Positions 10,278-57,083 of a stretch of DNA of 64,000 nt are shown in pieces; the stretch's first letter is position 1, and every line of letters begins with the position of its first letter. Below the pieces are notes generated by a model. The model had not been told where the DNA came from. It saw only the letters and a list, made by a program, of their open reading frames with translations, and searched no databases. Made by a program: the position numbers and the translations under genes. Origin of the DNA: Gammaproteobacteria bacterium (GTDB lineage: Bacteria > Pseudomonadota > Gammaproteobacteria > Pseudomonadales > Pseudohongiellaceae); NCBI GenBank assembly GCA_029246545.1, contig JAQWMX010000007.1, forward strand, positions 62,001-126,000, read 5' to 3'.

Positions 10278-10876
10278 ATGGATTTTGCCTCACCAACCCA
10301 CTTTAAAGCCTTCCATGAACTTATTAACCCTGACTTTTATGGTTTGGGAACCATTATTGGTGCAGGAATATACGTATTAATTGGAGAAGTAGCAGGTGTT
10401 GCAGACAGCTATATGCCCTTATCGTTTCTATTGGCAGGCCTTATTGCTCTATTTACGGCCTTAAGTTATGCCGAACTGGCTTCACGTTATCCGGTAGCTG
10501 CCGGTGGAGCTGTCTATGTCGATAAAGCCTGGGGCTGCTCTTGGTTCTCCGCTTTAATCGGTTGGATGATTATTCTAACGGGTATCGTTTCGGCAGCAGC
10601 AATCTCTAATGGTTTCGCTGGGTATTTAAATATTTTCATTGACGTGGAAGCGCATTGGGCAATACTTTTTTTATGTATAGCTTTATGTGGAATTGCAGTT
10701 TATGGAATAAATTTATCAGCCAGTGCTGTTTTCATAATCACAGTTTTAGAGTTGGGGGGCTTAGCTTATGTAGTTTGGGTGGCGGAGGGCATGGATCCTG
10801 TCGCAGATCAGGCCAGCTTCGAAAATTTGACAGAAGCATCAAGCTTGAATGGTATTTTTATAGGTGCGTTTTTTAC
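10278..10876 (+). pseudogene. APC-family amino acid permease, 3'-truncated
   Basis: The first ~200 residues of an amino acid/polyamine/organocation permease: the unwound helix-1 motif GTIIGAGIYVLIGEVAGVA, then AELASRYPVAAGGAVYVDKAWG and about six hydrophobic segments, ending at GIFIGAFF. At about 10870-10876 the sequence changes to that of a zinc carboxypeptidase in another frame; the permease frame runs on through unrelated residues to a stop at 10931. Half the transporter is missing, so it cannot be functional. The breakpoint falls in GGTGCGTTTTTTACC, which fits both genes for several bases. Confidence 0.82.
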
Positions 10877-11379
10877 CATCAGTGAACCCAGATGGTTTAT
10901 TAGATGGGCAGGCTGTTCGACAAAATGCTAGTGGAGTCGATTTAAATCGAAATTTCCCTAGTCAAGATTGGGAAGCAGCCGCCATAGAATATTGGCGTAT
11001 TAACACAGGCGAAAACCCTAGACGTTATCATGGTGAAGCAGCAGCGAGTGAGCCAGAAGTGCGTTGGATGATTGAGCAGATAGAAAAGTTTGATCCAGAA
11101 GTTATCGTTTCTGTTCATGCGCCGTATCATTTACTCGATTTTGGTGGGCCTTCTCAAGCCCCCGATAAAATTGGCGATTTATATCTGCATCAACTCGGTG
11201 TATACCCCGGCTCTTTAGGTAATTATGCTGGACTCGACCTTGGTATACCGGTAGTTACACTTGAACTACCCTCAGCAGGCATCATGCCTTCAATAGAACA
11301 AATCGAAACAATGTGGATCGATATGGTGGCCTGGTTAAACACTCGTTCTCAGAGCGAGCAACAAGCGGCTGCTTTGTAA
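10864..11379 (+). pseudogene. M14 zinc carboxypeptidase (MpaA-like), 5'-truncated
   Basis: C-terminal ~168 residues of an M14 metallopeptidase related to murein-tripeptide amidase MpaA. Visible marks: PSVNPDGL, SGVDLNRNFPSQDW, the third zinc-ligand region VSVHAP and the catalytic-Glu region VVTLELPSAG. The N-terminal HxxE zinc site and start region are missing. The apparent GTG start at 10864 overlaps the end of the permease fragment in a different frame and has no good ribosome binding site. One deletion that removed the 3' part of a permease gene and the 5' part of this gene explains the arrangement. Confidence 0.8.
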
Positions 11380-11545: not shown

Positions 11546-13768
11546 ATGAAATCAAAATCGGTTTTCATATTTATCAGTCTGGTTTTTTTTTCAAGCTCGC
11601 TACATGCGCAAATGCCACTTTCTGGCGATCTCGCTCAAAACTCTGATCGGACTCAATCCCAAGTAATCTATACAGATTTAGCACCTGATTTAGATGGTGT
11701 GCTAGATGATGAGATTTGGCAGCAAGCAACGCTAATAAGTGATTTTCATCAAACATCTCCCGTAGACCATGGCACTCCCACTCAAAGAACAGAAATTTAT
11801 GTGGCTTATTCGCAGAACAATTTTTATGTGGGCGCTCGTATGTATGATAGCGACCCATCTGCAATAAGTGCACGTCAATTAATTCAGGGTCAAAGTACAG
11901 GCTTTGACGACAGTGTTGGTGTATTCCTAGATTCATTCAATAATTCAAGAACTGGGTTTTACTTTTCATCTAATCCAAACGGAATACGTAATGAGGGTGT
12001 TTGGGAATCTGCTAATTCTTACAACAGTGATTGGAGTGGTATTTGGCAGGTTGAAGCTAGGATTGATGAAGAAGGTTGGGTCGCAGAGTTTGCTATACCT
12101 TTTACTACATTGAACTTTGATCCCACTACGGAAGAATGGGGTTTTAATTTGGTTCGATCTATATCCAGTAATAATGAAGACATAGCCTGGTCATCATTTA
12201 ATCGTAGTACTAATCCTGCAACTGCTGGGCAAATTTCTGGCATTAGGGATATCAGGCAAGGTGTGGGCTTAGATATTGTTCCTTCGGTAACTGTTGCTTC
12301 TCAAGAAGATTTTATAGCCGATACTTCGGATTCTAGATTTGATCCCTCTTTAGATGTGTTTTATAAATTTACGCCTAATCTCACCGGCGCCTTGACTATA
12401 AATACGGATTTTTCTGCAACTGAAGTGGATGATGTGCAAGTCAATTTAACGCGCTTTTCATTATCCTTTCCGGAAAAACGAGATTTTTTCTTGCAAGACT
12501 CTGAGATTTTCGGTTTTGGAGCGACTACAGGGCAAAGGTTTGGTCGCGGTGGCGGCGGGCCTAGTGATACAGACCCTTTTTATTCCAGAAAAATTGGTCT
12601 AGACCCGGCTACGGGTCAGCCAGTCGATATTGATGCTGGAGGAAAGCTTGCTGGTCGAGTGGGCGATTACAGTGTTGGCGTGCTGGCAGTTCAGCAGGGC
12701 GATAGAGTTGGACTTGACGGTCAAAATATCTTTATTGGTAGAGTGACACGAAACATCCTTGATGAATCCAGGGTTGGCTTTATTTTTACCGAGGGAGATC
12801 CAAATAGTGAAACTGATAACTCAGTAATGGGTACAGACTTTTCCTACCGCAATACTCGGTTTTCTGACTCCCACACATTGGCAGCAGCTGTTGATTATCA
12901 ACAAACCGATACCCAAGGTATGGACGGAGACGACAAGGCCTACAATGCCAGTATCGATTTTTCTACTCAGAATACAGGTTTCAGCTATGGCGCTAATTAT
13001 CGTTATGTTGGCGATGAATATAACCCGGCACTTGGTTTTGCCAGACGCAAAGGAATTGAGCGTGTTGGTTTATCTTTAATTGGGCGTTATTTCGTAAGAA
13101 ACCATCCTCAAATACGACAACTATTTAACTTTTTACGTTATTCCAAGACAGATACTCTCGACACTAAGCAACTGCAAAGTGAATCTCTCGGTTTTACTAT
13201 ACTTGGTGTTCAGACGCATGATGGTGGTTTCCATCGCTTTACATTGAACCGTGAAACTGAAGGTCTTGAGCGGGACTTTCAAATTCGACCAGGCGTTGTT
13301 ATTCCAACAGGTGAGTATACTTTTGATTCCTATAGTTTTTCGCTAAATTCATCTAGTCGACGGCAATTTGCTCCTGATTTCAGTTATGATTGGGGCGAGT
13401 TCTATAACGGTACAACAGAAGAATACGATTTGGGTATTGACTGGCGACCCAATGAGCATATATCGTTTGATTTCAGTTATAGGGTACAAAACACCGAGCT
13501 TCCTGCAGGAGACTTCACTATTCGTCAAATCTCGCTCGATGCGAATTATGCCTTTAATGCCAGATGGTCTTGGGTAAATCTGGTTCAATATGTTAATACC
13601 TCTGGAAATATAGGCCTAAACAGTCGTTTACGCTGGTCGCCAAGAGCCGGTGAAGACTTATACTTTGTAGTGAACTATAACTTCGATTCGATGGAAGCGG
13701 CGTTTGATGGTTTGAATGCTAAGAGTTCAGAGATAGTTCTTAAGTACACTCGCAACCTACGCTTCTAA
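11546..13768 (+). CDS. CBM9-domain outer-membrane beta-barrel protein (DUF5916 type), paralogue A
   Basis: 740 residues from ATG 11546, which starts a clean signal peptide (MKSKSVFIFISLVFFSSSLHAQ); the 20 codons upstream are not signal-like. The N-terminal part (about 30-240) is a CBM9-like sandwich: DLDGVLDDEIWQQAT, FYVGARMYDSDPSA, EFAIPFTTLNFD, WGFNLVRSI. The rest is rich in alternating strands (DPSLDVFYKFTPNLTG, NTDFSATEVD, FPEKRDFFLQD) and ends in the aromatic YTRNLRF, a BAM-type outer-membrane signal. Proteins of this architecture have no settled function. It is the paralogue of the gene at 16557. Confidence 0.85.
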   Translation: MKSKSVFIFISLVFFSSSLHAQMPLSGDLAQNSDRTQSQVIYTDLAPDLDGVLDDEIWQQATLISDFHQTSPVDHGTPTQRTEIYVAYSQNNFYVGARMYDSDPSAISARQLIQGQSTGFDDSVGVFLDSFNNSRTGFYFSSNPNGIRNEGVWESANSYNSDWSGIWQVEARIDEEGWVAEFAIPFTTLNFDPTTEEWGFNLVRSISSNNEDIAWSSFNRSTNPATAGQISGIRDIRQGVGLDIVPSVTVASQEDFIADTSDSRFDPSLDVFYKFTPNLTGALTINTDFSATEVDDVQVNLTRFSLSFPEKRDFFLQDSEIFGFGATTGQRFGRGGGGPSDTDPFYSRKIGLDPATGQPVDIDAGGKLAGRVGDYSVGVLAVQQGDRVGLDGQNIFIGRVTRNILDESRVGFIFTEGDPNSETDNSVMGTDFSYRNTRFSDSHTLAAAVDYQQTDTQGMDGDDKAYNASIDFSTQNTGFSYGANYRYVGDEYNPALGFARRKGIERVGLSLIGRYFVRNHPQIRQLFNFLRYSKTDTLDTKQLQSESLGFTILGVQTHDGGFHRFTLNRETEGLERDFQIRPGVVIPTGEYTFDSYSFSLNSSSRRQFAPDFSYDWGEFYNGTTEEYDLGIDWRPNEHISFDFSYRVQNTELPAGDFTIRQISLDANYAFNARWSWVNLVQYVNTSGNIGLNSRLRWSPRAGEDLYFVVNYNFDSMEAAFDGLNAKSSEIVLKYTRNLRF

Positions 13769-13834
13769 AACTACTGCGCTCGGTAATGCTTCGTTGAAAG
13801 ATTGATTTTCCTCAGTTACTTACTAATTGCAAGC

Positions 13835-13978
13835 TCCTTCATAAAATAAATCTTTCGTCTCGCCTAATCTGCGCTCGTAAAGTTTTAACTTTTAAAGCTA
13901 TTGCGCTCATAACGTTTTTAAGGTTCCAAAAGATCTTCGTAAAATAAACTTTTCGTCTCTCCTGACCTCTGCTCATGA
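13835..13978. repeat. Diverged direct repeat, two ~45-bp copies 98 bp apart
   Basis: Copy 1 (13835-13880) and copy 2 (13933-13978) share CTTC-TAAAATAAA, CTTTTCGTCTC-like and CCT-A-CT-GCTC segments in the same order, roughly 75-80 percent identical by eye. Some similarity continues into the spacer. Confidence 0.55.
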
Positions 13979-14057
13979 TGCTTTAGGTCCCAAAATATAA
14001 TCGAAAAATTATTCGATTATCTCTTTAGATTTATAATAATTAGTCAAAATCACTAAT

Positions 14058-14095
14058 GTCTGCTTTCTATTCAAAGCGGACCTTAGGGCTTTTTT
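14058..14095 (+). terminator. Interspersed hairpin copy 1 with T-run
   Basis: Inverted repeat GTCTGCTTT / AAAGCGGAC (one G-T pair), loop CTATTC, at 14058-14081, with a six-T run at 14090-14095. It is far downstream of paralogue A and belongs to the same repeat family as 15271-15293 and 22038-22061. The 8-nt gap before the T-run makes it a poor terminator by itself. Confidence 0.5.
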
Positions 14096-14179
14096 CTGAA
14101 TACTTGGTTACACTCCAACTATAATAAGAATCTTAGAGTATGGATGACCTTTTAAACTCGTCCCAATAGGAGTGAACTC

Positions 14180-15238
14180 GTGATAAAAATTATAAATTGT
14201 TCAAGGTTATTTCACTTTACTTTATTTTTGGCCAACTTGATGTTGATTCAAACTGCATTTGCTCAAGGTTCAATAACTGGGAGTTTGATTGATCCTAATG
14301 GAGCCAATATTACTGGCTTAAACCAGGATGTTATTTTGATCAATACTGGCACTAATGAACAGTATTCCGGCTCAACCAACCTGGAGGGGAATTTTACTGT
14401 TACTGAGCTCCCAGCAGGCTCATACAATCTTAGCTTCCTATTTCGTACAGCCATGTATCAATCCTACTCTGAAGAAGGTGTGCTTATTAGCGATGGTGAA
14501 ACTCTACAACATGACCTCAACATTGAATGGAGTATTAATTTAGGCACTATTGGTGATGACCCCGGGATGTTAGCAATAGATATGCTAAGAGATTCTGGTG
14601 ACCTTACTGGCGCACCACCAAGATTATTTGATGGCAAAGTTGATTTTTCAGGCATGTGGGTTGATACACAAAATCCAGAGTATGCTCCTCAACAGCCTCC
14701 CTACCAGTCCTGGGCTGCTGAAATGAATGACGAATTACGTGCCATGAATTTTCAGAACCCTGGAGCTTATTGCCTGCCTCAAAGTGCTGTAATGTCGACA
14801 GATGGGTTTCCATGGCAAATAATACAAACACCAGACATGCTGATACAAATTATGGAATTCGTGACCCCGGGTTGGCGACAGGTTTTTCTGGATGGTAGAG
14901 AAATGCCGGAATTATGGAATCCTAGTTGGCAGGGGCATTCAAGAGGGCATTGGGAAGGAGACACCTTGGTTGTCGTGAGTACTGGCTTTAATGATTATAC
15001 ACCTGGGTTTGGAATTCATACTGATAATATGATTGTGACAGAGCGTTATGCTCGTCCGCAAATGGGGCGAATGTTAGTTGAAGTAACAGTGGAAGATCCA
15101 GAAGCACTGACTGACAGTTATACCAATGTCTATGAACATGGATTAGTACTTGGTGAAGAAATCCTTGAATTTGTTTGTGCTGAAGGTAATACCGATCCTG
15201 CTCACTGGGAGCAACCTGTTTGGCAGGGAAGACCGTGA
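14180..15238 (+). CDS. Exported protein with carboxypeptidase-regulatory-like N-terminal domain
   Basis: 352 residues from GTG 14180 (AGGAG ribosome binding site upstream). Signal peptide ends near AFAQG. Residues about 30-115 form a CarboxypepD_reg/CNA-B-like sandwich (GSITGSLIDPNG, TNLEGNFTVTELPAGSYNL). The C-terminal ~200 residues begin KVDFSGMWVD and carry PGAYCLPQ and GHSRGHWEGDTLVVVSTGFND, a pattern common in exported proteins of unknown function. It shares the [V/I]DF[S/T]G-W opening with the products at 19009 and 20950. Function unknown. Confidence 0.82.
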   Translation: MIKIINCSRLFHFTLFLANLMLIQTAFAQGSITGSLIDPNGANITGLNQDVILINTGTNEQYSGSTNLEGNFTVTELPAGSYNLSFLFRTAMYQSYSEEGVLISDGETLQHDLNIEWSINLGTIGDDPGMLAIDMLRDSGDLTGAPPRLFDGKVDFSGMWVDTQNPEYAPQQPPYQSWAAEMNDELRAMNFQNPGAYCLPQSAVMSTDGFPWQIIQTPDMLIQIMEFVTPGWRQVFLDGREMPELWNPSWQGHSRGHWEGDTLVVVSTGFNDYTPGFGIHTDNMIVTERYARPQMGRMLVEVTVEDPEALTDSYTNVYEHGLVLGEEILEFVCAEGNTDPAHWEQPVWQGRP

Positions 15239-15270
15239 TGCTTAATTGTAATTAATCAAATAAAATTAAC

Positions 15271-15298
15271 GTCTGCTTTTCGTCGAAAGCAGATTTTT
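15271..15298 (+). terminator. Interspersed hairpin copy 2 acting as terminator
   Basis: TCTGCTTT/AAAGCAGA stem with loop TCGTCG, followed directly by TTTTT, 33 bp after the stop of the 14180 gene. It is both a member of the interspersed hairpin family and a credible terminator. Confidence 0.75.
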
Positions 15299-15362
15299 GG
15301 TTATAATTAAATAGAGTTATAATAAGCCTTTCAAACTCTTATTTAATAAGTGGAGGAAGCAA

Positions 15363-15569
15363 ATGACTGAACATGTTTCTGAAAAAGATTCCATTTCTTA
15401 TATAATTGGTGATCGTAAATGCTTGCTCTATATGCATGAAGATCTGCTTTATAACGGCTTTATTAATTATGAGGCATTGCAAGAATGTAAAAGTTTGGCT
15501 GATGAGTTTACTTATCTGTGGGATAAACACAGCGTACTTGATCCTTCATTACGCACCATGTTGCTTTAG
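15363..15569 (+). CDS. Small protein of unknown function
   Basis: 68 residues, acidic and soluble, with no signal peptide, starting MTEHVSEKDSISYIIG. A strong ribosome binding site (GGAGG, 7-8 nt before ATG) and a TATAAT-like element upstream (about 15316) support a real gene. The middle part (HEDLLYNGFINYEALQECKSLADEF) is predicted helical. I do not recognise the family. Its stop codon lies inside the first unit of a 13-bp tandem repeat. Confidence 0.7.
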   Translation: MTEHVSEKDSISYIIGDRKCLLYMHEDLLYNGFINYEALQECKSLADEFTYLWDKHSVLDPSLRTMLL

Positions 15570-15603
15570 TTCTTCTATTTAGTTCTTCTATTTAGTTCTT
15601 CTA
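15565..15603. repeat. Tandem repeat, 3 x 13 bp
   Basis: Three exact copies of TTTAGTTCTTCTA. The first contains the TAG stop codon of the small gene, so the repeat looks like replication slippage at the gene end. Confidence 0.95.
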
Positions 15604-15629
15604 TGTTGCTTTTAGTATATTAGGCTCTA

Positions 15630-16439
15630 ATGATGAAATATAAGAAGCAGACATTCCTAGTATTAGTGTTGTTCCTGAGCACTTTATTTAGTTCACCTTT
15701 GAGCTATGCGCAACAATCTTTATTAGAGAGCCTAGTAGAGCAGGGTGAAATACGTGTCGGCACTACAGGTGATTACAAACCTTTTTCCTACTGGAATATT
15801 GAAACTGAATCTTACGAGGGTTTAGATATTGATGCAGCACAAATGTTGGCAAGAGAGCTTGGGATAAATGTTCGTTTTGTTGCAACGAGTTGGCAAACCT
15901 TAGCAGACGGCATTCTAGAAAACCGTTATGACATTGCCATGAGTGGAATTACGCGAACTCTGGCTCGTCAGAAAATTGTTGGAATGTCTGACCCTTATAT
16001 CGATGTTGGAAAGGTCTTACTTATTCGTGATGAAGATAGAGATCGTTTTAAGTCTTTAGACGATATAAACCAAGCTGATATTCGTCTTGGTGTTAACCCG
16101 GGAGGAACTAATGAGTTATTTGTGCAAGAAAACATTACTCGTGCAAATGTTGTAATGATTGAAAGTAATCTGGAAATACCTGAACGAATTGCTAACGGTG
16201 ATGTGGATGCAATGATCACGGATAATATTGAAGCAACGTTATATGCGAATATGTTGCCTGAGCTACACATTGTGAACCCAGATCAACCTTTCACGCGTAA
16301 TAATGTTGGTTATATGACGCATCGAGATGATCAAGCTTTTCTTAATTGGCTAAACCTTTGGCTTGATCAGATGCAAAGAGACGGCTCTTACGATAATTTA
16401 AAGCTGCAATGGATAGGGCAGACAGCAGAAGGCGAATAG
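15630..16439 (+). CDS. Periplasmic SBP_bac_3-fold protein, cyclohexadienyl dehydratase (PheC)-like
   Basis: 269 residues with a signal peptide ending at LSYAQQ. The body follows the Pseudomonas PheC pattern along its length: GEIRVGTTGDYKPFSYW, GLDIDAAQMLARELG, YDIAMSGITRTLARQ, VNPGGTNELFVQENI, and MITDNIEATLYANMLPELH, where PheC has an acidic catalytic site. PheC converts prephenate or arogenate to phenylpyruvate or phenylalanine in the periplasm. Whether this protein is that enzyme or an ordinary solute-binding protein is open: no ABC permease or ATPase genes are adjacent, which favours a free-standing enzyme. Confidence 0.72.
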   Translation: MMKYKKQTFLVLVLFLSTLFSSPLSYAQQSLLESLVEQGEIRVGTTGDYKPFSYWNIETESYEGLDIDAAQMLARELGINVRFVATSWQTLADGILENRYDIAMSGITRTLARQKIVGMSDPYIDVGKVLLIRDEDRDRFKSLDDINQADIRLGVNPGGTNELFVQENITRANVVMIESNLEIPERIANGDVDAMITDNIEATLYANMLPELHIVNPDQPFTRNNVGYMTHRDDQAFLNWLNLWLDQMQRDGSYDNLKLQWIGQTAEGE

Positions 16440-16556
16440 CCATCCAAGAACATTGTTCAATCACATATAACTGAAGAATTCAAAGTTCACTATTCTTGCA
16501 TTATTCTCTTCTAATCTGACTTAAAAATTAAAGTAAATGCTGTAAAATGCGCCGTT

Positions 16557-18833
16557 ATGAATTTGAGTACAGTAGTTAGTTCTATTTTGTTTCGCCTGCC
16601 TTGCTTCTTTAAAAATAAGCTTCGCTTTTTTACCAGCACTTTCAGTTTATGTATTCTTTTTCTATCTTGCCTCTCAGCTAATGCCTTCGGTCAAACCACA
16701 CAGACTTCAGATCGAAAACAGATTGAAATTCCACGAACCGAATTAGTTCCGGTTATTGATGGTGTGCTTGATGATGAAATTTGGCAGCAAGCTGCTGTAA
16801 TAACTGACTTGCATCAAATGAATCCTGTTGATCATGGTGAGCCATCTCAGTCTAGCGTTTTTTATGTCACATACAGTGATGATTATTTTTATGTAGCGGC
16901 TAGACTTTACGATTCAAACCCCGAAGAGATCAGAGCAATGTCATTACTGCATGATACTGAGCTAATGGGGGAAGATGACACGATTAACATAATTCTGGAT
17001 ACCTTCGACAATAGCCGTACAGGATTTAGATTTGTAGGTCATCCCAATGGGATTCGCGGGGATGGTGTTTATGAAGGGCCAGGTACGATTAATTGGAATT
17101 GGAATGGGATATGGCAAACAGAATCCAGTATTGATGATGAGGGTTGGGTTACAGAAATAGCTATCCCATTTACAACCTTAAACTTTGACCCAAATATCGA
17201 TGAATGGGGGTTTAATCTGGAACGAGATATTCCACGCAACAATGAAGAAATTGCCTGGTCGTCATTCAACCGTAATAGCAACCCTTCTACAGCTGGATTG
17301 GCCTCGGGTATTAGTGACGTTAATCAAGGTCTCGGTCTGGATATTGTGCCTTCAATTACTATGGCTCAATCTCAAGACCATACCGCTAATACCAGTGATT
17401 CTCGCTTTGATCCCTCGCTTGATGTGTTCTACAAATTCACCCCAAATTTAACCGGGGCCTTAACTTTTAACACAGATTTTTCTGCCACAGAAGTGGATAA
17501 CCGCCAAGTAAATCTGACTCGATTTTCCCTGTTCTTTCCTGAAAGACGGGATTTCTTTTTACAGGATTCTGAAATATTTACCTTCGGCGGGTTGTCTTCT
17601 GGTGGAGGTGGAGGTGGACCTGCAAATACTAATGGCATTCCTTTCCATTCCCGACGCATTGGCCTCGACCCAGCAACTGGTCAATCAGTTGATCTAGAAG
17701 TAGGGGGTAAAGTTACCGGTCGAGTTGGTGATGTCAGTATTGGTGCTTTAATGGTTCAACAAGGTGATCGTCTTGGTCTTGATGGACAGGATGTATTTGT
17801 TGGAAGGCTGGCTTCGAATGTACTTTCAGAGTCTAAAATTGGACTTATCATGACTGAAGGTGATCCGAATAGTGTAACTGACAGTACTTTAACTGGAGTT
17901 GATTTTAACTACCGTAATACACGTTTTTCGGATTCTCATACCTTAACCGGAGATTTTTGGTATCAGCAAAGTGATACAGAAGGAGTTGAAGGAGACGATA
18001 AGGCATATAGTCTACAAACTCAGATTTCGACTTCGGGCACGGGGCTTGGAGGAAGACTTAGATATAGCTATTTAGGGGATAAATTTGACCCTGCATTGGG
18101 TTTTGCAAACCGTACCGGAGTAGAGCAACTCACTGGATTTGTTAATTGGCGTTATTTTCTTAGAGACCATCCACTGATTCGAAATAATTTTGGGTTTTTT
18201 AGCTTCTCACGTACCAATAGAAATGATACTGGCGAGTTACAAAGTGAGAATCTTTTTTGGCGAGTAATAAGCATTAACACACACAGCGGAGATGCACTTG
18301 AATTTCAGGTTCAACAGGAGACTGAAGGTCTTATTGTTCCTTTTCAGATTAGACCAGGAATCATTATACCTGCTGGAGAATATAGCTTTAACTCCTTTGA
18401 GATAGCCTTGAGTACGACTAATCAGCGCGATTTTTCGCCGGATATATCATACAAGCAAGGTGACTTTTTTAATGGTGAGCGGCGTGAAGTTGGCTTAGGC
18501 ATAAACTGGGCTGCCAGCCGAAATCTGACAATGGAATTCAGTTATGATTTTGCTGATGTGGAGATGCCTGAAGGTGATTTCGTTAGCCGTTTAATTAGTA
18601 TGAATATGAATTTTGCTTTTAATGCCGATTGGTCTTGGGTAAATCTTATGCAATATGATAATGGCTCAGATACAGTCGGAATAAATAGCCGCTTGCGTTG
18701 GACTCCACGAGCCGGTGAAAATTTATATTTAGTACTTAATTACAACACTGATTCTCAAGATGGCGCATTTAGAGGCTTGCAAGTTCGTGATTCTGAAGTG
18801 GTACTAAAATACACCCGTAATTTTCGCTTTTAG
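16557..18833 (+). CDS. CBM9-domain outer-membrane beta-barrel protein (DUF5916 type), paralogue B
   Basis: 758 residues; the long N-region plus hydrophobic stretch (LCILFLSCLSANAFGQ) is a signal peptide. Same layout as the product at 11546: CBM9-like domain (VIDGVLDDEIWQQAA, FYVAARLYDSNPEE, IAIPFTTLNFDPN) then a beta-strand-rich domain ending YTRNFRF. Many blocks are identical between the two (SDSRFDPSLDVFYKFTPNL, NTDFSATEVD, RIGLDPATGQ), so they arose by duplication; loops such as the Gly-rich SSGGGGGGPAN differ. A TGTAAAAT -10-like element lies just before the ATG, leaving a very short leader. Function unknown. Confidence 0.85.
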   Translation: MNLSTVVSSILFRLPCFFKNKLRFFTSTFSLCILFLSCLSANAFGQTTQTSDRKQIEIPRTELVPVIDGVLDDEIWQQAAVITDLHQMNPVDHGEPSQSSVFYVTYSDDYFYVAARLYDSNPEEIRAMSLLHDTELMGEDDTINIILDTFDNSRTGFRFVGHPNGIRGDGVYEGPGTINWNWNGIWQTESSIDDEGWVTEIAIPFTTLNFDPNIDEWGFNLERDIPRNNEEIAWSSFNRNSNPSTAGLASGISDVNQGLGLDIVPSITMAQSQDHTANTSDSRFDPSLDVFYKFTPNLTGALTFNTDFSATEVDNRQVNLTRFSLFFPERRDFFLQDSEIFTFGGLSSGGGGGGPANTNGIPFHSRRIGLDPATGQSVDLEVGGKVTGRVGDVSIGALMVQQGDRLGLDGQDVFVGRLASNVLSESKIGLIMTEGDPNSVTDSTLTGVDFNYRNTRFSDSHTLTGDFWYQQSDTEGVEGDDKAYSLQTQISTSGTGLGGRLRYSYLGDKFDPALGFANRTGVEQLTGFVNWRYFLRDHPLIRNNFGFFSFSRTNRNDTGELQSENLFWRVISINTHSGDALEFQVQQETEGLIVPFQIRPGIIIPAGEYSFNSFEIALSTTNQRDFSPDISYKQGDFFNGERREVGLGINWAASRNLTMEFSYDFADVEMPEGDFVSRLISMNMNFAFNADWSWVNLMQYDNGSDTVGINSRLRWTPRAGENLYLVLNYNTDSQDGAFRGLQVRDSEVVLKYTRNFRF

Positions 18834-19008
18834 AAGAACATAATATTTTTGTAGCTGAGATTATAATTATTAGCGTATCTATAAAATTATTGATAAAAAA
18901 TTTAGGTAGCTGTATAAGTTAGTAACTTTTAGATATCTGACTGATGTGATTTATTGTTACTTACTTTCAAATATTATAATTCAAATTTAAAACCAAGAGG
19001 AAAGCTAT

Positions 19009-19905
19009 ATGATTTCCCGCAACTTTTCTTTAATTAAGTCACTTAGTTTTCTTGCTGCTTTATTTCTCAGCCCTAGTTTGCTGGCGCAGGAGATAGATTT
19101 TTCTGGCGATTGGCGACCACTTTATTTTGAAGATTTACCTGAACGAATTCCCGGTCCGCATCTGGCAGATTATTCTGGGATGCCGATTAATGACGCTGCT
19201 AGATTGCGTGGGGATAGCTACAACCCAAATCGTATCTCTGTGGTAAGTGAATATATTTGTCGCGAACATGGTGGTGATTATTCTATGCGTGGTGCAGCAG
19301 ATATGAGAATAGAGCGTGTGGTTGATCCGCAAACTCAACAAGTTATTGCCTTTAACACTCGAATTGGCTTTATGGGTATGCAGCGAACAATCTGGTTGAA
19401 TAACCCAGAACGCCCTGCCGATATAGCGCCACATACTTTCAGAGGTTTTTCCACTGGCAGTTTTGATGGCAACATGCTGAACATTCTTACTACGGATTTT
19501 AAAGAGAGTTATTTACGCCGCAATGGATTAGCTGCTAGTGCTGAAAGGACTACTACTGAACATTGGGTCATGCATGGTGATTATTTAACGGTTGTCACTG
19601 TCATTGATGACCCAGTGTTTTTGACCGAACCCATGGTAAGAAGCCAGTCTTGGGTGAGAGACGTGTCTGCCAGGCAAGCGCCCAGCTCCTGCGTGCCTTT
19701 ACAAGAATTACCAATTAATGCATTAGGGCAAATTGTTCCCCATTTCTTACCTGGCCAGAACCCTTGGTTATTGGAGTTTGCTGAACGTTACCGCCTGCCT
19801 TATTCAGGCGTCCGTGGTGGCATCGAAACCATGTACCCAGAATATATGGATACGATGGAGGCGCCTGTTGGTGAACAGGAATTCTGTATAGAAGAGTGCA
19901 TGTAA
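19009..19905 (+). CDS. Exported protein of unknown function (DFSGDW family member)
   Basis: 298 residues; signal peptide ends at SLLAQE; ribosome binding site AAGAGGAAAG. Mature protein opens EIDFSGDWRPLY and later has ESYLRRNGLAASAERTTTEHW and VTVIDDPVFLTEP, the same order of blocks as the product at 20950 (GYLRKNGIPHSDQ, IVDDPVYLAEP). C-terminal cysteines (SSCVPL, FCIEEC) may form disulfides. I recognise the type from exported proteins found next to MBL-fold and TonB genes, but no function is known. It probably forms an operon with 19969 and 20950. Confidence 0.78.
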   Translation: MISRNFSLIKSLSFLAALFLSPSLLAQEIDFSGDWRPLYFEDLPERIPGPHLADYSGMPINDAARLRGDSYNPNRISVVSEYICREHGGDYSMRGAADMRIERVVDPQTQQVIAFNTRIGFMGMQRTIWLNNPERPADIAPHTFRGFSTGSFDGNMLNILTTDFKESYLRRNGLAASAERTTTEHWVMHGDYLTVVTVIDDPVFLTEPMVRSQSWVRDVSARQAPSSCVPLQELPINALGQIVPHFLPGQNPWLLEFAERYRLPYSGVRGGIETMYPEYMDTMEAPVGEQEFCIEECM

Positions 19906-19968
19906 GCAGAGTACTTATCGAATTATTTAGTGTAAAAATTTAGAAAAATTAGAAACGTGGACAATATT

Positions 19969-20946
19969 ATGTATAAACACAATTTCTTAAATTTATATTT
20001 TACGAAGCTAGTTTTATTCTGTTTTCTGTTTGGGACATCAGTAAATGCTGCTGAGATGGGCCTAGAATTAAGTTTATTTCATGTTAAAGGGCAGGTTTAT
20101 GTTCTCACTGGCGCTGATGCTAATGTCACCGTTCAAATTGGCGATGAAGCTATAGTCTTTGTTGACACACCAGCCCCAGAATATGTCGAAGAAATGATGT
20201 CTCTTATTCGTGAGATTTCTAACGCACCCGTTCGTTACGCTATTACTACTGCGCTTGATCCACTCCATTTAGCAGGCAATGAAACCATCGAGAATTTGGG
20301 CTTTCGAGGTTTTGGTGGTAGAGGGGTAGGTGTAGATGTTGCCATTGGCGGTAATACAACAGGCGTGACACTACTTGCTCATGAAAATGTGTTAAATCGT
20401 TTTTACCTGGCAGAAAATGATGTCGAATCTTTGACCTTAACAACTACCTACTTTACAACAGATTTTGATATCTATTTAAATGATGAAGGCATTGCCATTT
20501 ATCACATGCCAAATGCCCATACTGATGGCGATAGCATTGTGTTTTTTAGAAGCTCGGACGTTATCAGCTTAGGTGACCTTCTGGTTCAAGGACAATTCCC
20601 CGATATTGATGTCGAAGCTGGTGGCAGCGTTAATGGCTTCATCGACGCACTGAATTATACTTTAGAACTCGTGATCCCTGGCCCTAATGCTGAAGGTGGC
20701 ACTTATGTAGTTCCTGGGCATGGTCGCATTGGTGATGAAATTGATGTTGTTGAATACCGTAATATGCTGGTTATCATTAGAGATCGTATTCAATACCAAA
20801 TAGAGCAGGGAATGAGTTTTGATCAAATTATTGCCAGCGAACCTGCCCTTGATTATGACACTGAATATGGGGGGGCAAGAGGTGGGCCTTCAACCACAGA
20901 ATTTATTACCTCAGTTTTTCAAAGTCTTCAAGAAGAGGTGGAGTAG
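19969..20946 (+). CDS. Exported MBL-fold protein with degenerate zinc motif
   Basis: About 325 residues. ATG 19969 is preferred over GTG 19957: a GGA sits 7 nt before it and the product starts with a clean signal peptide (VLFCFLFGTSVNAAEM). The fold follows SoxH/quinoprotein-relay-like MBL proteins: VYVLTGADANVTVQIG, FVDTPAP, later NAHTDGDSIVFF, SLGDLLVQGQFPD and VPGHGRIGD. The first metal motif HxHxDH is replaced by ALDPLH in ITTALDPLHLAGNE, so three of its four ligands are lost while the downstream His, Asp and His are kept. It lies between two related exported proteins, 3 bp before the second. Confidence 0.82.
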   Translation: MYKHNFLNLYFTKLVLFCFLFGTSVNAAEMGLELSLFHVKGQVYVLTGADANVTVQIGDEAIVFVDTPAPEYVEEMMSLIREISNAPVRYAITTALDPLHLAGNETIENLGFRGFGGRGVGVDVAIGGNTTGVTLLAHENVLNRFYLAENDVESLTLTTTYFTTDFDIYLNDEGIAIYHMPNAHTDGDSIVFFRSSDVISLGDLLVQGQFPDIDVEAGGSVNGFIDALNYTLELVIPGPNAEGGTYVVPGHGRIGDEIDVVEYRNMLVIIRDRIQYQIEQGMSFDQIIASEPALDYDTEYGGARGGPSTTEFITSVFQSLQEEVE

Positions 20947-20949
20947 ATC

Positions 20950-21753
20950 ATGAAATTCAGCAAAGCATTTTGTTCACTTATTCTTTTTCTAGGGCTTGGT
21001 TCTACAATAGCCAGTGCTCAAATTTCTTCGATACAAGTTAGACCAAGTGGCCCAGCACCCGGTAGAGCAGAAGCGCCAATTGATTTAACGGGTACTTGGG
21101 TTTCTATAGTTTCTGAAGATTGGCGTTGGCGTATGACAACACCACTGATAGGCGACTTTGCCAATATCCCTGAGAATGAAGCTGCTAGAGAAGTTGGCAT
21201 GGCTTGGACTCCAGAAACGAATGTTGGCAATGAATGCATCGCATATGGTGCACCAGCCATTATGCACAGACCAGGCCGAATCAAAATCAACTGGGCAGAC
21301 GATCTGACACTCAAAATGGAATTTGATGCTGGCATGCAAACAAGAATGTTTCACTTTGGAGAAACATTTTCGACTACAGCCTTATCTAGGCAAGGCTATA
21401 CAGTTGCGAAATGGGAAGACGCACCTGCATCAACAACCTTCAATGGCTTGCGTATTGGTCAGACGCAAAGAGTCGGTACAAGCACTCGCTCATTAGAAGC
21501 AATAACCACAAATCTCGTTGCCGGTTATTTACGCAAAAATGGAATTCCACATAGTGATCAGGCAGTAGTAACAGAATACTTTGATGTGTTTGAGACGCCA
21601 GACGGAAGAAGTTGGTTTGTCGACACTATTATCGTTGATGACCCGGTTTACCTTGCAGAGCCTTGGGTGACTACTATGCATTTCATGAAGGAAACGGATG
21701 ACTCTAAATGGAATCCAAAAGACTGTTTTGTAATGCATGAGAGTGAGCTTTAA
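20950..21753 (+). CDS. Exported protein of unknown function (DLTGTW family member)
   Basis: 267 residues; signal peptide ends at TIASAQ. The mature part opens APIDLTGTWVSIVSEDW and carries GYLRKNGIPHSDQAVVTEYF and TIIVDDPVYLAEPW, matching the product at 19009 and, more weakly, 14180. Only 3 bp separate its ATG from the stop of the MBL gene, so the two are translated from one message. The repeated linkage of such proteins with an MBL-fold protein suggests a joint role at the cell envelope. No enzyme motif is visible. Confidence 0.8.
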   Translation: MKFSKAFCSLILFLGLGSTIASAQISSIQVRPSGPAPGRAEAPIDLTGTWVSIVSEDWRWRMTTPLIGDFANIPENEAAREVGMAWTPETNVGNECIAYGAPAIMHRPGRIKINWADDLTLKMEFDAGMQTRMFHFGETFSTTALSRQGYTVAKWEDAPASTTFNGLRIGQTQRVGTSTRSLEAITTNLVAGYLRKNGIPHSDQAVVTEYFDVFETPDGRSWFVDTIIVDDPVYLAEPWVTTMHFMKETDDSKWNPKDCFVMHESEL

Positions 21754-56141: not shown

Positions 56142-57083
56142 CTATGGTGGTGGTTCACCTTGCATTAGATGAGGTGGCAAGGTGTCTGTAATAGCTTCAG
56201 GGACGCCTAATGGGCCGGGGCCTGCTATGCCAAAACCTGGGCCTCTGGTCCACCATAAAAAAGTCGGAGAATAATCAGGAAATCGCGCAGCCATTATCGG
56301 TGCAAATTCACGTAAGGGTACACCCGGTTGTGCGACATCTTGATAAACTTGCATATAATTAATTGCTTCATCAAGCACTTCAGGTCCGCCATTTGGACCA
56401 TGTCCAGGGTAAACCAGGTTGATAGGTGAGAATGCTTGTACTGATTCAAGTGCTCCGATCCAGCTTGCAGGATTGTTTAAATCAGCAAAGTAGGGATGCA
56501 TTTGCGCGAAGATTAAATCGCCAGTAATTAATGCCTCTAATGATGGAATATAAAAGACCATTGCATCCATGGTTTCTGCTGGGATCAAATCCATAAACTG
56601 GATTTCATAGTCTTCTAGGAAAATGTTATTGCCAATTAGAAGCTCAGGAATAACTGGTTGTATTGGAAGCTGAGAGCCATAAAGCGGCTCCCAATGTACC
56701 CATTTAGATTGAAATTGTGTGGAAATTTCATCGATCACTGGCTGGCGGGCTAAAACCTGAACGTCTGGAAAAGCTTCGACAAGTGGGGCGAGCCCCATAT
56801 AGTGATCAGGATGGCCATGGGTTAATAAAATATGGGTAAGTTCACGACCATTACTTTTTAATCTTTCAGCAAGTATTTCCCCGTCGCCTAGCAACCAAGG
56901 TGAATCAATTTGGATAGCTTCATTTTCGCCGAGCAGGGTAAAAGAGTTTTCTCCGATACCGCTATACTGACCTGTATAAACCTCTAGTTGTAGTCCATTC
57001 GATTCAGCCGCACAGGCTGATAATTGAAATGAAATAAATATAATTAAAGCTGGGTATGTAAATAATTTATTAGTTTTTATCAT
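56142..57083 (-). CDS. MBL-fold metallo-hydrolase, lipoprotein
   Basis: 313 residues; signal sequence with lipobox FQLSACAAE. The zinc motif is complete, THGHPDHYMG (HxHxDH), followed by TGDLIFAQMHPYF and YPGHGPNGG, which carry the other ligands. Overall similar to the SoxH/quinoprotein-relay group of MBL hydrolases of unknown substrate. It differs in this from the exported MBL-fold protein at 19969, which lost the motif. Direct upstream neighbour is the symporter gene on the same strand, 63 bp away. Confidence 0.88.
   Translation of the reverse strand: MIKTNKLFTYPALIIFISFQLSACAAESNGLQLEVYTGQYSGIGENSFTLLGENEAIQIDSPWLLGDGEILAERLKSNGRELTHILLTHGHPDHYMGLAPLVEAFPDVQVLARQPVIDEISTQFQSKWVHWEPLYGSQLPIQPVIPELLIGNNIFLEDYEIQFMDLIPAETMDAMVFYIPSLEALITGDLIFAQMHPYFADLNNPASWIGALESVQAFSPINLVYPGHGPNGGPEVLDEAINYMQVYQDVAQPGVPLREFAPIMAARFPDYSPTFLWWTRGPGFGIAGPGPLGVPEAITDTLPPHLMQGEPPP

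Follow-up and report, generated by a model that had tools for sequence, protein, structure and literature searches.

Between positions 11546 and 21753 of the window (the whole 64,000-nt stretch of DNA analysed here), a run of plus-strand genes raises the question of which of them belong together and what they do. A preliminary description had taken the run for one undescribed envelope system. Its open reading frames are present, all on the plus strand, and every product except one of 68 aa carries, as it had claimed, a hydrophobic, signal-peptide-like N-terminal segment (judged by simple hydropathy, without SignalP). The claim of an undescribed system was right in part: an exported set of genes that is duplicated as a unit does exist here, but its boundaries were misdrawn, and only the last three genes belong to it.

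Extent and copies of the A-MBL-B module

The recurrent unit consists of three plus-strand genes only. The first, A (19009..19905, assigned by profile A3/A5), encodes a calycin-like 'DFSGxW' protein of 298 aa; the second, MBL (19957..20946, with an alternative ATG start at 19969), encodes a metallo-beta-lactamase-fold protein with a degraded metal site; and the third, B (20950..21753), encodes a calycin-like 'DLTGxW' protein of 267 aa that is homologous to A. Judging from their N-terminal segments, all three products are exported. The gaps between the genes are tight (51 and 3 nt). The final part of the MBL gene contains a Shine-Dalgarno-like stretch, GAGGTGGAG, and B starts 3 nt after the MBL stop; translational coupling from MBL to B is plausible.

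MBL was found directly upstream of B in 75 of the 81 B genes, with a median gap of 20 nt, and in 70 of these 75 cases A was also present upstream or downstream. In addition, A, MBL and B show correlated pairwise identities (r 0.70-0.83), a level reached by 0 of 999 within-genome shuffles. These results show that the three proteins diverged together and that duplication and diversification affected the entire module. The 2.25-Mb genome that holds the window has at least seven A-MBL-B modules, which are diverged from one another, and its relatives in the genus have 7-11 modules per genome. As many as 25 copies occur in other genomes, a figure that counts B genes and not whole modules. The carriers are some soil and marine bacteria, a Bryobacterales acidobacterium among them, and the distribution is patchy. 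At two loci of the own genome (L026 and L027), A occurs without MBL and B, which suggests that A can work alone.

The neighbours vary between modules and are often housekeeping genes; no neighbour family is widely recurrent except DUF6152, and no constant transporter was found in the neighbourhoods. A plasmid search with B gave no match, so there is no sign of plasmid carriage. PADLOC models of known anti-phage defence systems did not match A, MBL, B, the related protein encoded at 14180 or DUF6152, and literature searches on operons of calycins and MBL-fold proteins found no description. A-MBL-B is an undescribed, recurrent module of predicted exported proteins.

Flanking genes of the run

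Two genes of the run (11546..13768 and 16557..18833, both plus strand; the second is referred to as BAR2) encode barrel proteins of about 750 residues with CBM9_1 and DUF5916 matches. They are paralogues, as had been proposed, with 57% identity over 735 residues, and they lie outside the recurrent module: the DUF5916 barrels are a separate family with about 6-9 members per genome in the genus. Of 55 cases, 3 had a DUF5916 barrel and a B gene no more than 5 kb apart, where 1.55 would be expected (P about 0.2). It is absent beside the other modules of the own genome and beside the orthologous modules, the only matches being 7-8 kb off, at the far end of loci L030 and L031, and the closest relatives of BAR2 in sister species (77-79% identity) are on contigs away from the module. 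On these neighbourhood counts, the DUF5916 barrels were rejected as module components, and with them the proposed repeat of a barrel followed by a DFSGW protein. Literature searches on DUF5916 found no description.

The product of 15630..16439 (plus strand) had been called PheC-like, and this label is well founded: in a phmmer search the cyclohexadienyl dehydratase 5jos (E=2.9e-74) ranked well above amino-acid-binding proteins, which identifies the product by sequence as a periplasmic cyclohexadienyl-dehydratase (PheC) homologue. As a module partner it was rejected, since it is near no other module, and it is considered a bystander. The 68-aa product (15363..15569, plus strand) matches DUF7931 (Pfam PF25559) over the model's 61 C-terminal positions, scoring 27.4 bits where the cut-off is 27, and at L029 a copy with 80% identity precedes the orthologous module by about 0.9 kb; the product is probably a remnant or a small protein, and likewise a bystander. 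Because the run has gaps of 411, 124, 117 and 175 nt and a 10-bp terminator-like stem at 15271-15294, 3′ of the 14180 gene (from a scan that yielded 10 sites of this kind where chance predicts 8.6), it is probably not one operon. Linkage across genomes divides what the preliminary description had joined: A, MBL and B are strongly linked, while the DUF5916 and PheC genes are unlinked to them elsewhere.

The gene at 14180..15238 (plus strand) encodes an exported protein with a CarboxypepD_reg domain (Pfam PF13620) and a C-terminal DFSGxW domain. The suggested kinship of this product with those of 19009 and 20950 extends beyond shared motifs. The A and B profiles align in hhalign with a probability of 100% (E=4.7e-44), and the 14180 protein matches the A profile with 97.3% (E=1.8e-11), which places it, by profile comparison, in the same superfamily as A and B, outside the module.

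Predicted barrels and a degraded metal site

The AF2 models of A (pLDDT 88) and B (pLDDT 86) have about 8-9 strands, and the first strand begins at the GxW in both. The best structural matches of the A model are FABP/CRBP/NanoLuc-type barrels (Z 7.5-8.3), and such barrels are nearly all of those among the matches listed for A and B. The B model best matches FABP/NanoLuc chains (Z 8-9.1 over about 115 residues; best 2.8 Å over 117 residues), where a Z of 8-9 just exceeds the range that the structure-comparison tool flags as possibly a mere common arrangement. Foldseek gave no match with an E below 0.001. Among the 73 B proteins, G48, W50, C96 and C259 are invariant; among the 72 A proteins, G33 is invariant, W35 is kept in at least 90%, and C84 and C228 are conserved. 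The two conserved cysteines in each family probably form a disulfide.

Taken together, the models predict that A and B are calycin (lipocalin/FABP-like) barrels with a GxW first strand. They would share this strand and the up-and-down beta barrel with the calycin superfamily, which includes lipocalins, fatty-acid-binding proteins and avidins. Unlike known calycins, they carry two conserved cysteines and, between the first two strands, about 45 additional residues, are mostly paired with an MBL homologue, and match no Pfam model at E 0.01 among the 73 B or 72 A proteins, lipocalin and FABP models included. Similarly, NCBIfam gave no family match for A (72 members), and PDB sequence searches with the A and B profiles gave no useful match.

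In the MBL protein of the window, A-x-D-x-L-H replaces H-x-H-x-D-H (ligand columns A-D-L-H / H / D / H), so that the set of HxHxDH plus the downstream His ligands is incomplete. All six tested metal ligands are kept in 25 of the 89 module MBL homologues, and the ligand state changed at least 13 times on the tree; in the own genome, C17 and C7 have modules with an intact site. The dN/dS between the window MBL and its orthologues is about 0.05-0.1, which shows that the protein is under purifying selection although the metal site is lost. The window MBL has no Pfam match of its own; it aligns over its full length with homologous copies, intact paralogues among them, that match PF00753 above the cut-off. 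The MBL profile matches PDB 8d2z, the nearest solved MBL structure, with an E of 9e-22.

Possible functions of the module

Tentatively, we propose that A-MBL-B deals with small molecules in the periplasm, as a module that is complete in itself, present in many copies and patchily distributed. By analogy with calycins, A and B would each hold a small ligand in the barrel, probably a hydrophobic or amphiphilic one. An MBL with the H-x-H-x-D-H site would act on this ligand, hydrolysing a lactone, ester or amide; an MBL without the intact site may have turned into a ligand holder that is non-catalytic or binds a single metal, or into a scaffold for A and B. PqsE offers a precedent for such a non-hydrolytic partner: this MBL-fold regulatory protein acts through partner binding and not hydrolysis. 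Unlike the exported module MBL, it works in the cytoplasm, where its partner is a LuxR-type regulator. The high copy number may reflect divergence to different ligands, as in expanded families of substrate-specific binding proteins. With no transporter accompanying A-MBL-B, its role is more probably binding or modification than uptake.

The one recurrent neighbour bears on a different role, in copper or other metal handling or in the periplasmic oxidation of substrates, with the barrels working together with DUF6152 and the MBL as a metal-site relative. DUF6152 (PF19649) repeatedly lies next to genes of the barrel superfamily or is fused to them. At 17 loci in 16 genomes it is encoded no more than 400 bp from module genes and in the same orientation, mostly just upstream of B, and at least 12 of the 19 DUF6152 genes of the own genome, three fusions included, adjoin or are fused to a DFSGxW protein (chance about 3e-15). 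A paralogue of the 14180 protein on another contig (C16, 53% identical) is likewise followed by a DUF6152 gene. In all 19 own-genome DUF6152 proteins HH directly follows the signal-peptide site, and a further His is conserved in NPH; the predicted mature His-His start and the NPH His may resemble a histidine-brace copper site. Metal binding has been shown for DUF4198 and DUF6702, other DUF families with an N-terminal His (PMC12537917), and a BIM1-like copper-protein match, weak and below cut-off, lies beside A at L025. However, most modules have no DUF6152 nearby; around the window module no remnant of it was found, with the orthologous module at L029 having DUF6152 just downstream, and no recurrent cytochrome or copper transporter accompanies the modules. 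We therefore regard a metal or redox role as unlikely. Literature searches on DUF6152/PF19649 found no description.

Calycin folds include enzymes too (isomerase, cyclase, hydratase and decarboxylase types exist), so that A and B might be enzymes themselves and, with the MBL as hydrolase, break down hydrophobic or aromatic compounds in the periplasm. In B, R61, W115, Q130, R132, R195 and E209 are strictly conserved, A has such polar residues as well, and alcohol dehydrogenase, PQQ dehydrogenase and molybdenum-oxidoreductase-like genes are near some modules. With no constant pathway among the varying, often housekeeping neighbours, and no catalytic motif recognised in A or B, this too is unlikely.

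The nearest named MBL families are the quinoprotein relay/SoxH-type zinc metallohydrolases, which are exported, like the module MBL, and A-MBL-B might accordingly assist quinoprotein dehydrogenases, as the SoxH-type MBL of PQQ systems would. TIGR04559 and TIGR04558 are the best NCBIfam matches, and one module (L022) has a PQQ dehydrogenase gene 2.7 kb away. However, the scores of 71.7 and 40.5 bits are far under the curated cut-offs of 280 and 300, the module MBL has other partners and has often lost metal ligands, and the modules lack a nearby SoxYZ-like carrier, a rhodanese and a constant PQQ enzyme, which makes such a helper role improbable.

By profile match, the fold of the module MBL is also that of metallo-beta-lactamases of subclass B1/B2 and of further MBL-fold proteins (PDB 8d2z, 3q6v and 5ew0), from which it differs by a long C-terminal extension. 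Antibiotic-binding bacterial lipocalins are known; the module could then sequester and hydrolyse toxic compounds such as antibiotics. We consider this quite improbable: the class B1/B2 models score 24.9 and 29.2 bits against cut-offs of 200-240, all beta-lactamase cut-offs are missed by far, the HxHxDH site is incomplete in most copies, and as many as 25 B copies in a genome would be excessive for resistance. A single envelope system of DUF5916 barrels, DFSGxW proteins, MBL and PheC-like protein, to which adjacency on one strand and the export of all its parts had pointed, is largely refuted and highly improbable, since DUF5916 and PheC are found by neither the other modules nor the orthologous ones.

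It is conceivable, if rather doubtful, that DFSGxW barrels, decaying MBL partners and His-His DUF6152 proteins form one large, undescribed modular system of the periplasm whose modules multiply to many diverged copies per genome and in which MBL catalysis was lost many times in favour of holding ligand or metal. By eye, the decay of the MBL and the presence of DUF6152 follow no common pattern. The predicted mature N-terminal His-His of DUF6152 is a concrete lead for metal binding. Two of the three module families, A and B, have no Pfam model, and A-MBL-B constitutes a natural experiment in which an enzyme fold is losing its active site while the operon stays conserved. With at least seven modules kept in a marine genome of 2.25 Mb, and up to 25 copies of B, loss of the function must be costly.

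The exported gene run and its repeat unit

All of the open reading frames named in the preliminary description were found where it had placed them, and every product of the exported run has a signal-peptide-like start except one of 68 residues (15363-15569), which matched the C-terminal part of DUF7931. The two large proteins (11546-13768 and 16557-18833) both carry CBM9_1 and DUF5916 and are 57% identical to each other, and the product of 15630-16439 was rightly called PheC-like since its nearest relatives are cyclohexadienyl dehydratases (5jos, E=2.9e-74). The kinship suspected among three exported proteins also held, as hhalign showed true homology between the protein at 14180-15238 (CarboxypepD_reg plus a C-terminal domain with the DFSGxW opening motif), A (19009-19905) and B (20950-21753). 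A aligned with B at E=4.7e-44 (probability 100%) with both conserved cysteines in register, and the C-terminal part of the 14180 protein aligned with A at E=1.8e-11 (probability 97.3%).

When the genome of the same bacterium (2.25 Mb, 97% complete) was searched with B, A- and B-type genes lay about 1 kb apart on the same strand at seven places, and a metallo-beta-lactamase-fold (MBL) gene lay between them at all seven. In the window, MBL (19957-20946) follows A after a 51-nt gap and is followed by B after 3 nt. The flanks of the seven copies are unlike one another and include housekeeping genes, which shows that the A-MBL-B module stands alone. In two of these modules, a DUF1554-like exported protein lies directly 5' of A (L021:10513-11163 and L024:11455-12129; one of the two matches is under the Pfam cut-off). 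A-type genes without MBL or B were also seen (L026:8798-9703 and L027:7772-8671), so A can occur alone.

The larger system proposed at first reading, in which DUF5916 barrels and PheC join the DFSGxW proteins and MBL, did not recur beside the module elsewhere. Genomes of this genus encode 6-9 DUF5916 proteins each; of the 55 cases counted, 3 lie no more than 5 kb from a B gene, when 1.55 would be expected (P about 0.2). Beside the orthologous modules of sister genomes (L029-L031; B 76-84% identical), neither DUF5916 nor PheC was found, and DUF5916 matched there only in L030 and L031, at the end far from the module; the nearest relatives of the second large protein in sister species are on contigs away from the module. 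Since DUF5916 is near chance level by B genes and orthologous modules lack both neighbors, the larger system is a local coincidence. Upstream of the run (10278-11379), an amino-acid permease gene breaks off after about 190 residues and continues, in another frame, as the C-terminal portion of an M14 carboxypeptidase; either a deletion has joined the two or the assembly is chimeric here.

Recurrence and co-inheritance of the module

A scan of species genomes confirmed 386 B relatives, and the best 80 loci, which come from Gammaproteobacteria and Acidobacteriota plus three from a record labeled Acidimicrobiia, were read with mechanical gene calls; the sample, drawn with B as the query and one peptide pattern, is biased to window-like B genes. 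At these loci, MBL lies directly 5' of B on the same strand for 75 of the 81 B genes that had sufficient sequence ahead of them (median gap 20 nt), and A is also present in 70 of these 75 pairs (53 upstream of MBL, 14 downstream of B and 3 both). A strong correlation (r 0.70-0.83) links the pairwise identities of the three proteins across the 73 complete modules of 41 genomes. When paralogues of the same genome were re-paired, the observed correlation was reached in 0 of 999 trials, which indicates from sequence that the module is inherited and duplicated as a unit. Its distribution is patchy: at strict cut-offs, B was found in 1 of 232 genomes drawn evenly from the class, the one being the window's own, and in 3 of 149 genomes from the phylum of an acidobacterial carrier. 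Carriers have 7-11 copies in the window's genus and 2-25 outside it, counted by B genes alone.

Folds of A and B and the metal site of MBL

Pfam has no match for the B family (73 proteins) or the A family (72 proteins), and NCBIfam has none for A. AF2 modeled both with confidence (mean pLDDT 86 for B and 88 for A); Foldseek alone gave weak matches with avidins, which are calycins, at the top. A second-look structural alignment listed almost exclusively calycin-type matches (NanoLuc, fatty-acid- and retinoid-binding proteins), with Z of 8-9.1 for B and 7.5-8.3 for A. A first-strand G-x-W, the classical calycin signature, is invariant or near-invariant in both families. The predicted calycin fold is thus a good assignment but not a certain one, because Z of 8-9 is barely over the tool's "possibly only common arrangement" range. 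Two highly conserved cysteines in each family probably form a disulfide.

Among named families, the window MBL comes closest to the quinoprotein-relay/SoxH MBLs and to class B beta-lactamases, with every score far under its cut-off, and the nearest solved structure is 8d2z. The window protein has A-D-L-H in place of H-x-H-x-D-H and retains H196, D221 and H263. Only 25 of 89 aligned module homologues keep all six tested metal ligands; where they are lost, H116 is most often replaced by Ser or Ala, and H118 by Asp. The site is intact in three of the seven modules of this genome (C17, C7 and C6) and decayed in four. Its loss has probably been repeated, because the tree has at least 13 changes of its state, a count in which gain and loss are not told apart. 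Against three orthologues, the window MBL has dN of 0.12-0.15 and dS of 1.3-3 (near saturation), and this purifying selection indicates that it is not a dying gene. Thus, the module's MBL-fold protein tolerates metal-site loss. Two further MBL-fold genes were noted: one with an intact HxHxDH after a module on contig C6 (L025:7339-8241), and an exported one at 56142-57083 with an intact THGHPDH motif, at a position unrelated to the module.

DUF6152 and possible functions

DUF6152 lies within 400 bp of module genes on the same strand at 17 loci in 16 genomes, mostly directly upstream of B; none is in the window. The bacterium's genome has 19 copies (for example L125:561-998 and L126:602-1018, and others at L119, L124 and L127), of which at least 12 adjoin or fuse to a DFSGxW protein (chance about 3e-15), with three fusions. 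All 19 have His-His straight after a signal-peptide-like cleavage site and a conserved N/S-P-H C-terminal to it, and the cleavage-site pattern is present in 33 of 36 DUF6152 proteins of the locus set. An N-terminal His made by signal-peptide cleavage is a hallmark for finding secreted metal binders, by which DUF4198 and DUF6702 were confirmed (PMC12537917); DUF6152 is not among the families named there, and our literature search found no paper on it. The predicted mature His-His start and the NPH histidine suggest an undescribed N-terminal-His metal site, a lead rather than a result. Adjoining an A gene, the protein at L025:10951-11550 matches the copper-acquisition family BIM1 weakly, under the cut-off, and has a predicted mature N-terminal His.

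Taken together, these results show that A-MBL-B is a conserved, exported, co-evolving, multi-copy module in which an MBL-fold protein accompanies two barrel proteins. No described system matches it and two of its three families have no Pfam model, but its folds are themselves already known. Rival readings are a metal or redox role together with DUF6152, enzymatic barrels that take part in periplasmic catabolism, assistance to quinoproteins, and detoxification. In the ligand-binding reading that we propose, the A and B barrels would bind small ligands, and MBL would process the ligand where its site is intact and hold the ligand or its partners where the site is lost; an MBL-fold protein that works via partner binding has a precedent in PqsE. 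The copies of the module may have diverged toward different ligands.
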